A stretch of DNA of 64,000 bases. Source: Undaria pinnatifida. Lineage: Eukaryota; Sar; Phaeophyceae; Laminariales; Alariaceae. Position numbers and translations under genes: made by a program. The notes below the pieces were generated by a model. The model saw only the letters and a list, made by a program, of their open reading frames with translations, was not told the DNA's origin and ran no database searches. Where the stretch lies: positions 1,854,359-1,918,358 of the forward strand of contig JABAKD010000016.1 in the NCBI GenBank assembly GCA_012845835.1, written 5' to 3'. This document shows, in pieces, positions 20,955-26,900 of the stretch; position 1 is the stretch's first letter; each line of letters begins with the position of its first letter.

Positions 20955-23900
20955 ATGAGAGGGGCGCTGCTGGCCCTAGGGCTGTGCGCTTGCGAACTCC
21001 GAATTGGTACCTCCTTCGTAGGTCCCGCACAGCTTCGCTCGCAACCGGCATCACGCGCCAACAGGTGAAGCAAACCATCTCCCAAAAACATCAAAACATG
21101 GGCAAAACTAAAACTAGCCGCCGTTTTAGCACAGCAGCGAGCATCATCGCAGCATCTCGGGCAGCACGTTGCCGTCATTGGACGCTTGAAGTAGTGTTGC
21201 TGCAGTGTTTCCGGATTGCTGTGCCACTTGGCACCCTCTCTCTCCTTTGTCGGCTCAAGGGAACTGCGCAGCGACATGGCACCTCGCGATCGGGCCAAGT
21301 TTTTTTCTCTAGTACGAACGTGATCCCTGATTTTGCCACTATTTGGACTTAATTTTAATACCCGTTTGATATTCATGTTATTATTCAAAGTATTATTATA
21401 TTTCCGCCCAGAGCGGTACTTCTGATGGTCGAGTGAGACTCGTGCAGCGTGGTTTTGATCATGATGGCGGTCATTTTTGACTGCTGATTTCATTGTTCAT
21501 GAAGGTCAGCTTTTACCGCTGCTCCTGCTGCTCCTGCTGTACGAGAGCGAGTTGGACGCAAACATTGGACGCTAGATGGAGCAGGCCGGGAGCGAGCGAG
21601 CACGCGGACGTGGGCGAACGGGGGCGGGGGGAAGGAGGAGGAGGAGCCGCAAGACCTTGTGGAGAAGCTTTTCAGGTAGGGGCGGAATCCGGATGTGGTT
21701 TCGCCGCGCTCAGCTGTTCATTGTGTTGCTTTCTGTTTTCCGTTTCAGCTTTCTGCCCCCTTGGAAACGCATCCACATCAATTTTATAACTATTTTTCAA
21801 GGACGTCAGCCGCGAGTTCGACGAATTTCAGGTCCATCTTTTTTTGTTTGCAAACACATCGTTCATGCGGGTGTTATATTATTAGTATCAGTGCACACAT
21901 TATCTAGGAAAATCGTCCTGTTGACCCTGACAACATCCACGGGAGTCACCGACCTAAATATTTCATGAAGATAAAATACACTTCTATTAATAGTATAAGA
22001 CGCGCGAACGACCTTCCGTAAATTTTGTGGAACTACTGCTGTGTAATAGCGAAATATCATAGATGTACCACGCAGCTTGCAAAGCTGACGCTTTTCAATT
22101 TGTATAAAAACACGCGCGAACGACCTTCCGTTTTTTTTTCAACTGTGTATGAACCATATCGTAGGTTTAAAGTCACACACACCGTATCATTAAGGGTAAT
22201 GATATTTTATTATAAAAAATGAAAATACACTCCAGCTGTGAGATCGAAGATTTCGTCGAAACTCATCTTTGCAAGCTGTGTGTGATACTCCGATCGCGCG
22301 CATTACGAGTTGTGTGTCCTCATTAAGGATATAGGTCGGCGACTCCCCTTACAACTACAGTGTAGCTATCAGGGTCAACAGGATGATTTTAGTCAGTCTG
22401 TGCGCGGAAACTATAAAACCCGTTTCTGAGGGGGACAAAATCTGACAGCTGTGAAGGGAAATGTATCCTTTTATCAAGTGAATCTTGTAAGTCGAATAAC
22501 CGGTGAGGGGGGTGGGGCGGAGTTTTGAAGGACGTGGGGGCCTGGTTTTGATCAAAAGCGAGCGGGTTTGGAGGGGGGGGGGGGGTAATTCCTTATTTGC
22601 GACACTGGTGTCGTAAATAAGCGTGTCGTAAATACGCTCTTATTTACGACACCGCGCCTTGTTTGCGTCACACGCCCCGAATCACCGATCACGGCTGTTT
22701 TGTCATGGTGAAGAGCTATCGCGGAAGCTGTCCTGTGCAGAAAACGGCCCAGTACTCAAAGAGATACGTCGTATCCTGGTGCACCGGCAGAATACTCACA
22801 CCGGTGTCGTAAATGACGTGTTTTACGATATCGCGAAACGTTCACGACACGGACCCCCGATCGCCTAGGTTCTGTCAAGGTTGGTTTGGCATGATGTAGG
22901 GCTATGAATGAAGCTGTCATATACCCGAAACGGTCCGGTAGTCGACGAGATACGCAATACCCTGGTGCACCAGCAGCACAGCCAGGCTGGTGCCTTGAAT
23001 ATGCCCTAAAAAGGCCTTATTTGCGGCACCGGTGTCGCAAGTACCTCATTTACGACACCGCGGCACGTTCACGGCACACATGCCGGATCAGCCAGACGCT
23101 GCCACGGCTGGTATGGCATCGTGTAGAGCTATCATTGAATCCATCCCGTACCCAAAACGGTCCAGTGCTCGACGAGATACGCCGCATTCGCGTGCGCCGG
23201 CAGCACCTTCGGACCGGTGTCGTAAATAGCGTTAGCTACGACACCGGTGTCGCGCATACGCTATTTACGACACCGCAGCGTGTTCGCGGCACGGGCCCCG
23301 GATCGGCTAGACGTTGTTACCGCTTCGTTGGCATGGTGTAGGGCTTCGATTGCAGCTATCGTATACCGGAAACGGTCGAGTACTCGACGAGATACATACG
23401 TGGTATCCGCCTGCACCCACAGCACAGTTGTCGCTCTACGCCGTTCATCTCAGCAGCCGGTGTGGGGTAGTCCAATGCGAGTGCTTGTACCCTTCAAAGC
23501 GTTGCATTATCACCCAACGGGTCAACTATGGACGCGAAGGACGGGCACCAAACCTGTGGTGTACGTGAAGTGTAGTGTCTACGTAGCAGTACGCAGATGC
23601 TTGCGAAATAGGTGGGTTGACACATTGATGGGAAGATGCAAGGTGTTATATTGTCGACATCTGCTACGCTATGAATTGGCTGTGAAGGACTTTTGCTGTT
23701 CTATAAAATTACTCGAACAACTTCAGCTGTAGTTATTAACTGTCAGCTGTGACTTCGACAGATTTTGGGGTGGATATTCATCTTCGCAAGCTGTGTGATT
23801 CACCGACCGCTCGTTTTTGGGTAGTAAGTTGTCGTGATTCATCGTTGTCAATGGCAATATTAAATACATACTACTGCTGTGTCAATGGTGCTGATGGTAT

Positions 23901-26900
23901 TCATCACGGATTTGTTGGGCCTATTCGCCCTTGTGTGTGTGTGTGTTCTTCACATTAAACCGTTCTTCTACTCGTCGACATCCAGCACACCCAGTGTCCG
24001 TACTGATTCTTCACCCTAGAAAGATCAGCTCTGTGGTCACAAGCCACGACACAGAGATAATGCATCGTAATGCATTCGACAACGCAATGTCATGCCCTAG
24101 TACTGGGTACGACAGGCACAACATACATACGTCAGCAACAGAAATACATTGGAAGAGAGAAATACGAAATAAACAAAAACAAAAACAAAAACAAAAAACA
24201 AAAACAAAATAAGAAAACAAATAAAAACAAAGATAAAAATAAACCGAAAAATGAAACAAACAAAACGAAGGGGAAATCGAAGAAACAACCCAACCGGAAA
24301 GGAGAGCCAAAGCTCGGAAAAGAAACATAATAAAATGAAATAAAATAAAGTAAAGTAAAACCAAAATAAGATAATCCGAACACGAGCCAAAAACCTGGAC
24401 ACGCAAGGAGGGAACAAAGGGGAAAAAAATACCCCAGAAAAAGACGAAAAGTGCTATGTACCTACTAGTCGGCCTGGTACCTTGCTACCCTGTCTGCCAT
24501 CTCCTTCCTGCCTTCGTCCACCGCGGTCTCCCTTCTATTCCTCCTGTTGCCCCCCCTGCCCCCATTCCCTTGGATGGCTTTCCTTCTACTCCTCCTGTTT
24601 CCCCCCCTCCCCCCTTTGTGTTCTTCTCATTAAACCAAAATACCTTGTAAAAGAGAGAAACAACGAAAGAAACCAAGACAAAATAAATAAATAAATAAAT
24701 AAAAAGGGGAGCCAAAGCACGGGAGATAGAAACATACCCCGAGCATGAGCCAAAATGGACATGCAAGGGGGAAAGAAAGGAAAAAAATACCCCGGAAAAA
24801 AGAAACAAGTAAACGAAGGAAGACTGGGAGGGCCAAATAAAACAGGCTCGTCACCTACCCACCATGCAAGACTCCCTTCATAAGGATAAGAAGGGGAAAG
24901 AAAAAAAAAAAAAAAAAAGGAAGAAAAAAATGTACTAACCAGCAACGAGATGCATTGGTGCGTAGTACCTATACGACGTCTTATGGTTTTCCTTTTCTCA
25001 ATCATATTTTTAAGTTGTGTGCTTACGTAATATTCTCCAGTCTGCCCATGGGTTTCACCACCTCCGTAGGAAGCGACATCGGCAATCGGAATCCGTTCAC
25101 AGTCCGCACCCTTTACCGAGATGACACCCGTAGCATTTTCCGTGCAACACTACGACTTTCGCCAGGATGACCGGTTCAATACTACTGCTGTAGACACGGA
25201 AAAATAGCAGTAATGCAGATTCCGTAATAAATGGCAAGTTCTTAACGACTGTAGTCCATTCGTAGCGTAGCAGATAGATGTCGACAATATTTTACCTTGC
25301 GTCTTCCCATCAATAACGTCAACCAACCTGTTTCGCAACTATCTGCAGGGCAACGTACTGCTACGTAGACACTGCACTGCACGTACACCACAGGTTTGGT
25401 GCCCGCCCTTCGCGTCCATAGTTGACCTGTTGGGTGATAATACAACGCTTTGAAGGGTACAAGCACTCGCATCAGACTACCACACACCGGGTGCTGACGT
25501 AAACGGCTTGGAGAGACAGATATGTTGTTGGTGCACAGGCGGGTACCACGCACGTGTGTATCTCGTCGAGTACTCGACCGCTTCGGGTATATGATAGCTT
25601 CAATCGAAGTCCTACACCATGCCAACGAAGCTGTGACAGCGTCTAGCCGATCCGGGGTCCGTGCCGCGAATATGCTGCGGTGTCGTAAATAACGTATGCG
25701 CGACACCGGTGTCATAACTAACGCTATTTACGACACCGGTCCGAAGGTGCTGCCGGCGCACGCGGATGCGGCGTATCTCGTCGAGCACTGGACCGTTTCG
25801 GGTACAGAATGGCTTCAATGATATCTCTACACTATCCGGCATGTGTGCCGTGAGGGTGCCGCGGTGTCGCAAATATGGCCTTTTTAGGGCTTATTTTACG
25901 CCACCGGTCTGACTGTGCTGCTGGTGCACCAGGATACCGCATATCTTCGTCGAGTACCGGACTGTTTCGGGCACATGATAGCTTCAGCCATAGCCCTGCA
26001 CCATGCCAAACCAGCCGTGACATAATCTAGGCGATCGGGAGCCCGTGTCGTGAACGTTCCGCGATGTCGCAAAACACGTTGTTTGCTACACCGGTCTGAA
26101 TATTCTGCCGGTGCACCAGGATACGACGTATCTCGTCGACTACTGTGCCGTTTTCAGCACTGGATGGCTTCCGCGATAGCTCTTCATCATGACAAACCAG
26201 CCGTGAGAGTTCCGAGGTGATCCGGGGCGTGTGGCGCACACAAGGCGCGGTTTCGTAGATAAGAGCTTTTTTTTCGACACCAGTGTCGCAAATACGGAAA
26301 TGCGACACCGGTGCCGTAAATAGCATTACTCCATCATAAACGAAGTATAGATTTACTCCAAGCAGCTTGCAAAGTGGAGTTTCAATCATTCAACCGGTCG
26401 TACTCACAGCTGACGTTTTTCAATTTTTTATAAGAACAAAGTACATCCGGTCGACCTGCTATCCCGGCGGTCAAGAGGGGGAGGGGGGTGTTACAACGCT
26501 TAGTTTGGGTGGGCAATTGGTTAACTTTTTACCTGTATAAAGACGAGCCAAACGGACTACTAACCTCTCAAGCCCGTGTAGAGGTAGACGCAAAACATTG
26601 TACACATATCATGTACAGGGATTCGTATCATGCATATGCTACATGTTTGCATGGCCAGCCTGGATGTCTTACTCGAGAAAATAGCGTATTCTGCACAATT
26701 GCAGCACCAGGTACACTGCTGTGTCAGGTGACTACCGCAGCAGTAAAGGCTTCCGAGCTTCTTAATTTCCTGTATCGCCCGGTGCTTGAGCAGGATCCCA
26801 TGGGATCTCGCGGGCTCCACGGGCTGTGTCTTGTGAAACCACGGAATCGCGCCGCACCATACCACGGCATCCCGCACGACTTCCGGTGGGATCCCGTGGA

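Follow-up and report, generated by a model that had tools for sequence, protein, structure and literature searches.

What is the long inverted repeat that occupies about 3.75 kb of a 64-kb stretch of the genome of the brown alga Undaria pinnatifida, and how could it have come into being? The stretch as a whole (C22:1854359-1918358 of an assembly of 511 Mb in 68 contigs) is referred to here as the window, and positions are given in the window unless a contig is named. The inverted repeat forms an element at 22583..26331 (~3.75 kb; ends set by comparison with the termini of related copies), in which no protein family was recognised. It very probably represents a fossil copy of a family of non-autonomous DNA transposons with foldback architecture, and this copy is decayed and by now probably immobile. 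The family itself is a seemingly undescribed one of known architecture.

Inverted arms, termini and dispersed copies

When the element stretch is compared with the window by blastn, a single dominant inverted alignment is found (1116 columns, 80.9% gapped identity, 1091 bits). It joins the left arm (22589..23676, + strand, read from the outer to the inner end) with the right arm (25258..26299, - strand), such that the arms are inverted copies of each other over their whole length, as a previous sequence-only reading of this DNA had proposed. Where the arms align without gaps, in blocks of 182-285 nt, their complementarity is 87-92%, and the divergence of the arms amounts to 13% without gaps and 19% with gaps. 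The homology of the left arm to other copies extends to ~23692, and its matches to several copies in the genome stop at query positions 1097-1107. Equally to other foldback elements, most of the element is made up of the long inverted arms.

Many further copies are found in the genome, for which the sequence-only reading had recommended a search: the left arm yields 70 matches, the window's own included (best 40 of 105 candidates). Part of these matches was fetched as loci (numbered with an L; the window copy is L000), and the outer ends of 35 arms were compared, two belonging to the window copy and 33 contributed by 26 of the 30 fetched loci, with exclusion of L001-L008, which are automatic duplicates of genome-search matches. 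A terminus of about (A)GGGTAATGCTATTTACGACACCGGTGTCGTAA, or about GGGTAATGCTATTTACGACACCGG, is common to many of these ends, the remainder being eroded or cut. From the other copies, the left end of the window copy can be refined to GGGTAAT at 22583, blurred by a run of G, and the right end to ATTACTCC up to 26331-26332. The left terminus, GGGTAATTCCTTATTTGCGACACTGG (22583..22620, + strand), lacks a block of ~26 bp of the family terminus, and the right terminus, read inward as GGAGTAATGCTATTTACGGCACCGG (26290..26332, - strand), exhibits two mismatches to the family pattern.

With up to three mismatches, this terminus pattern has at least 42 + 54 = 96 matches in the genome, as opposed to 1 + 2 for the reversed pattern, and 42 of the 96 listed matches belong to a sister type (TTTGCG or near). 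After removal of the two matches inside the window's own arms, 94 listed ends entered a pair test, in which neighbouring termini within 6 kb are convergent in 18 pairs (spans from 386 bp to 4.05 kb) and not convergent in a single one, as is to be expected for bounded mobile elements. Fourteen of the two-ended copies delimited in this way are of the TTTGCG type, among them an element nested in L025 and those at C2:3226791-3228794, C27:11870153-11871617 and C13:3606601-3608985; a further pair of termini lies at C30:2837997-2842050. The family is dispersed and multi-copy and possesses common termini, which are likewise features of foldback elements. An exact-pattern search for the family terminus in a viral contig collection gave no match.

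Two of the fetched loci, L017 and L021, are 95.5% identical over ~1.8 kb of inner flank and similar in their outer flanks, which has the look of a segmental duplication. Beyond the right end of the window copy, a repeat GCTTAGTTTGGGTGGGCAATTGGTTAACTTTTTACC is situated at 26498-26535, and by eye a similar sequence adjoins the truncated right ends of L024 and L028.

Tandem units, relationships of the arms and core

Concerning the internal structure of the arms, a hidden Markov model (HMM) built from the window's four left-arm units recovers four units in each arm, in line with the tandem structure previously noted from the letters. The left arm contains four tandem units of ~215 bp (22653..23428, + strand; individually 22653-22804, 22832-22989, 23059-23216 and 23274-23428), and the right arm also four (25520..26249, - strand; 25520-25679, 25736-25835, 25905-26063 and 26091-26249). 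The spacing of the units within arms varies between 179 and 227 bp (179, 227 and 215 bp in the left arm; repeat family D6). Different units of one arm are only 62-75% identical over stretches of 125-180 nt, for which reason the ~200-bp array was not reported in the window by Tandem Repeats Finder. Since this identity is far below the 87-92% found between the arms at matching positions, the units predate the arm pair.

The recurring boundary motif is a 16-bp palindrome, ACGACACCGGTGTCGT, which is found where units adjoin and also at the ends of the element. With up to three mismatches it has nine matches in the window as compared to 0.32 expected; seven of the nine are situated inside the element (four in the left arm, three in the right arm), such that the recurrence reported earlier holds, and some right-arm units lack a match at this threshold. 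An exact-pattern search for the palindrome in viral and genome contig collections gave no match.

Across the window copy and the fetched loci, the HMM finds 163 units. Arms usually contain four of them, followed by a short inner segment of unique sequence; L023 has three units per arm, L024 six, L018 seven, and L047 and L048 one each, and such a variable unit number among copies is known from foldback elements as well. Taken together, the architecture, the dispersed copies, the own termini and the variable unit number bear out the assignment to the foldback type that had been suggested from the sequence. Relatives in the form of a ~400-bp hairpin with a single unit per arm also exist (L047, L048 and L056-L058, five sequences examined), and a genome search with L047 yields 114 matches from the best 40 of 128 candidates. 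The size series (1, 4 and 6-7 units per arm) suggests a route from a short hairpin to long arms, of which the simplest order would be that the one-unit hairpin came first and that the arms were then lengthened by tandem duplication. Ordinary miniature inverted-repeat transposable elements, which are short, non-coding and bounded by terminal inverted repeats (TIRs), stay below ~0.8 kb, and the window copy with its 3.75 kb falls outside this class. Seven of the one-unit hairpin relatives lie within ~345 kb (C26:10640589-10985127) and are seemingly clustered.

The relationships among arms were studied in a maximum-likelihood tree of 18 of 19 arms, from which the long-branched L032 was omitted and in which only the window copy, L013 and L020 are represented by both arms. 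In each of these three copies, the arms are nearest to their own partner, strongly so in two and weakly in one: the two arms of the window copy are sisters with a support of 99/99, those of L013 with 92/93, and those of L020 with 70/61. Forcing the left arms of the three copies into one clade costs 107.6 log-likelihood units (p value of the approximately unbiased test, p-AU, 2.7e-6) and forcing the right arms into one clade costs 85.2 units (p-AU 2.2e-4), both arrangements being rejected; a FastTree analysis of all 19 arms agrees with the maximum-likelihood tree. As the window arms are sisters and a side-wise ancestry is rejected, the arms were homogenised within copies. That both arms of a copy share changes suggests conversion between them or repair via a hairpin, by which the arms would have been kept alike, and the clustering of arms within copies constitutes a quantitative handle on this homogenisation. 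The arms of the window copy are separated by ~0.14 changes per site, a distance that would give a date only in combination with the rate of the organism. It is a rather unlikely generalisation that, in foldback families of lineages other than animals and land plants, arms evolve in concert via hairpin-templated repair during or after transposition, yielding near-perfect foldbacks in the absence of selection, and that hairpin transcripts moreover enter small-RNA silencing in a lineage from which silencing machinery of the animal or plant kind is reported to be missing.

The core between the arms is also shared among copies. Its left half (23742..23867, + strand) is 79.7% identical to the core of L013 over 133 columns and includes a widespread dispersed repeat, and its right half (24954..25336, - strand) is 69-76% identical to L013, L014, L009, L026, L020 and L011, whereas an extra stretch of ~1 kb, which is partly A-rich (23900..24950, limits approximate), is unmatched by the ~0.6-kb core of L013. 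The latter core recurs in L014, L020 and the window copy and largely in L009 and L011, and its right half is also found in L025, L026 and L028; the order arm-core-arm is common to L000, L013, L014 and L020. The first ~170 bp of the L013 core correspond to the widespread repeat (in the core search, the best 40 of 360 initial candidates were scored). A dispersed repeat of ~75 bp, CAGCTGTGAG-WTCGA...GTCGAAACTCATCTTTGCAAGCTGYGTG, occurs in twelve pieces in the 64-kb window (approximate starts 2881, 9555, 12477, 16898, 17111, 19781, 22233, 23742, 26362, 43296, 43443 and 56690), and related sequence is also present in the element core.

Mobilisation and competing explanations

The family would have moved by cut and paste, with a transposase supplied in trans that was most likely Mutator-like, because a nested sister element is flanked by a repeat of ~10 bp; mobilisation in trans by such a transposase is the most likely course, and the odds on the superfamily itself are roughly even. 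The nested sister is found in L025, where an element of 2.54 kb (6931-9470) interrupts an arm unit belonging to the older family. Its flanks were joined after trimming the right one by 0-13 bp and compared with other arms, a trim of 10 bp giving the best match (summed bits of the top 15 matches: 2122, versus 1732 at 0, 2011 at 9, 2024 at 11, 2052 at 12 and 1980 at 13 bp), and the strings flanking the sister element (TTTCGGGTAT / TTTCGGGCAT) are identical at nine of ten positions, so that its insertion appears to have duplicated about 10 bp of the target. This length falls into the range of 8-11 bp of Mutator duplications, which are unseen in the older copies. Relative dating furthermore becomes possible where, as here, a relative is nested in a copy of an old family. 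Matches to transposases of Mutator-like elements (MULEs) number at least 111 in the genome, all of them above the cut-off.

Several observations weigh against this reading. A transposase is recognised in no copy, and by eye every one of the at least 111 listed MULE matches is more than 20 kb distant from any listed terminus, the closest being ~23 kb away (C2). The ~10-bp repeat stems from one insertion only, and that of the sister (TTTGCG) type. At the window copy, a target duplication was looked for and none detected, the run of G in its left flank and the decay of the copies limiting this test. A group test on 12 two-ended copies, from which the C57 pair L039/L040 was omitted, revealed no target duplication among lengths of 2-12 bp (best z 2.1 of 121 combinations), and neither did a second one on 13 pairs over the same lengths (best z 2.6 of 360), the right ends differing between the two tests by four bases in L020 and by one base in L041 and L042. 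More flank similarity would be expected if duplications of ~10 bp had decayed merely like the arms. The target duplications by which the sequence-only reading wished to check the element were thus detected neither at the window copy nor in the 12 two-ended copies as a group, the one informative case being the ~10-bp repeat at the nested sister. Finally, many of the fetched stretches possess one recognisable arm (e.g., L009, L011, L012, L015, L017 and L022), which speaks against cut and paste, as this process gives no single-armed copies directly. Candidate duplications in single copies (L048 with 8 of 9 bp, L010 with 7 of 8 bp) were not counted, and TTAA or other short duplications next to termini, being confined to few copies, were dropped.

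Concerning coding capacity, Pfam gave no match for three arm open reading frames (ORFs) among the ORFs sampled (ten per round in two rounds). The core of the nested sister in L025 contains an open frame of 65 aa, for which the genome yields 135 matches when the frame itself is counted. Presumably this frame resembles the C-terminus of hAT transposases, a likeness without Pfam support: the Pfam search of the frame returned no hAT domain and only DUF6748 (E 0.033), hAT genes near termini not having been searched, and by eye none of the other matches is situated at a listed terminus. The frame was rejected as a marker of the family; it looks captured or nested. On C57, two convergent termini are 27.7 kb apart (15638142 and 15665848), possibly representing a giant or interrupted element. 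This pair was also considered as a candidate autonomous copy; inspection by eye of the 2.5-kb pieces beside each end, with no family search behind it, revealed no frame resembling a transposase.

Target duplications of the hAT, PIF/Harbinger, piggyBac- or Kolobok-type and KDZ superfamilies measure 8, 4 or 3 bp, to which the ~10-bp duplication does not fit. It is nevertheless possible, if on the whole doubtful, that the same foldback family was moved by a transposase of one of these superfamilies, given that the duplication length comes from one nested insertion only, that TTAA is found beside a few termini (L010, both ends of L013, L033) and that the 65-aa frame recalls hAT. The missing Pfam support of this frame and the position of its other matches away from the listed termini argue against such a transposase.

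Compared with these questions of superfamily, a foldback transposon as such has weaker competitors. A transcript across the element could fold into a long imperfect hairpin: the predicted RNA fold of the element has -2157 kcal/mol as compared to -1144 to -1246 kcal/mol in seven control windows of equal length, and 940 of 1102 left-arm bases are predicted to pair with the right arm, the longest continuous helix comprising 81 bp. The 1.1-kb double strand envisaged by the sequence-only reading thus finds support in silico, but any foldback would fold in this way and the arms have diverged by the ~0.14 changes per site given above, such that a functional long-hairpin RNA locus under selection, as a source of small interfering RNAs, is very improbable. 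In the window, Rfam gave no match at gathering cut-offs. Just as improbable is a local origin of the inverted repeat, in which a dispersed tandem repeat would have undergone inverted duplication or ectopic recombination instead of the whole being transposed; single-armed copies are common, each flank of the window copy is similar to a different repeat and no target duplication is detected, all of which would suit it, whereas the same order of arm, core and arm in L000, L013, L014 and L020 and the 18 convergent terminus pairs would not. An artefact of assembly, i.e., a mirrored or collapsed repeat, to which long inverted repeats are generally prone and which the sequence-only reading had named as its own refutation, is excluded by the difference of the arms at 13-19% of positions and by the copies elsewhere in the genome.

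Known foldback systems and surroundings of the window copy

The preferred reading, a non-autonomous foldback transposon family, finds parallels in several described systems. In the Foldback (FB) elements of Drosophila, the target duplication has a length of 9 bp, whereas none is detected at the window copy, and unit size and sequence differ as well. Similar to the family in Undaria are their inverted arms of short tandem units in variable number (as also cited in PMC4079207 and PMC3688188). A further parallel is the Tetris foldback of Drosophila virilis. According to excerpts of its description (PMC4079207), its inverted ends are long, comprise outer and inner domains and contain ~220-bp tandem units whose number varies; the middle is non-coding and variable, a related miniature element exists, and an autonomous copy was not found. 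This likeness concerns the described architecture, and there are differences: the repeats of Tetris are ~94% alike as compared to 62-75% in the Undaria family, and its insertions are flanked by duplications of 8-10 bp, whereas in Undaria none is detected apart from the ~10 bp at one sister insertion (excerpts of PMC4079207). An array of satellite size was not noticed in the Undaria family, no genome search with a single unit standing behind this. Long, internally repetitive TIRs are also possessed by Galileo (Drosophila, P superfamily), in which, according to the portions available of PMC3688188, the repeats of the TIRs carry extra transposase-binding sites. Binding is demonstrated there, whereas in the Undaria family, with no transposase known, those palindromes that lie at element ends or between units are putative binding sites by analogy and may have served a transposase in the same manner.

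Among brown algae, the Ectocarpus genome equally contains non-autonomous DNA transposons; the accessible sections of PMC12477816 list many such families together with a single MuDR family and 51 DNA families left unclassified, and the word 'foldback' is absent from the main text, the supplementary library lying outside the comparison. A literature search at the level of titles and abstract openings brought up neither this family nor any foldback element from brown algae or their relatives, which is no proof of absence in print. As far as these sources reach, the family adds a brown algal member to a class described from flies, nematodes and plants.

Concerning neighbouring genes, Pfam identifies a thioredoxin-like ORF at 10.4 kb and glutaredoxin at 14.5-15.3 kb, and a motif search finds the C-terminus of the glutaredoxin followed by a stop at ~15736-15813 (+ strand), which puts the apparent end of this gene near 15.8 kb. 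Further along the + strand, no exon is recognisable before a TLDc exon at ~30.1 kb, which remains below the threshold (19.8 versus 24.5 bits). For selected ORFs between these two points, and for one reductase-like ORF of the window, Pfam gave no match. As the TLDc match begins at profile position 20, the TLDc exon is probably preceded by a further one, which may lie to either side of the element. The placement in an intron, which had been taken for granted, is hence not established, and the element may be intergenic or situated in a 5' intron. For annotation, it serves as a reminder that a repeat-bearing gap of 3.7 kb beside a gene is not necessarily exonic or regulatory. At 29692-30035, immediately upstream of the TLDc exon, a microsatellite of trinucleotide type gives rise to long frames of poly-Val/Leu/Cys.

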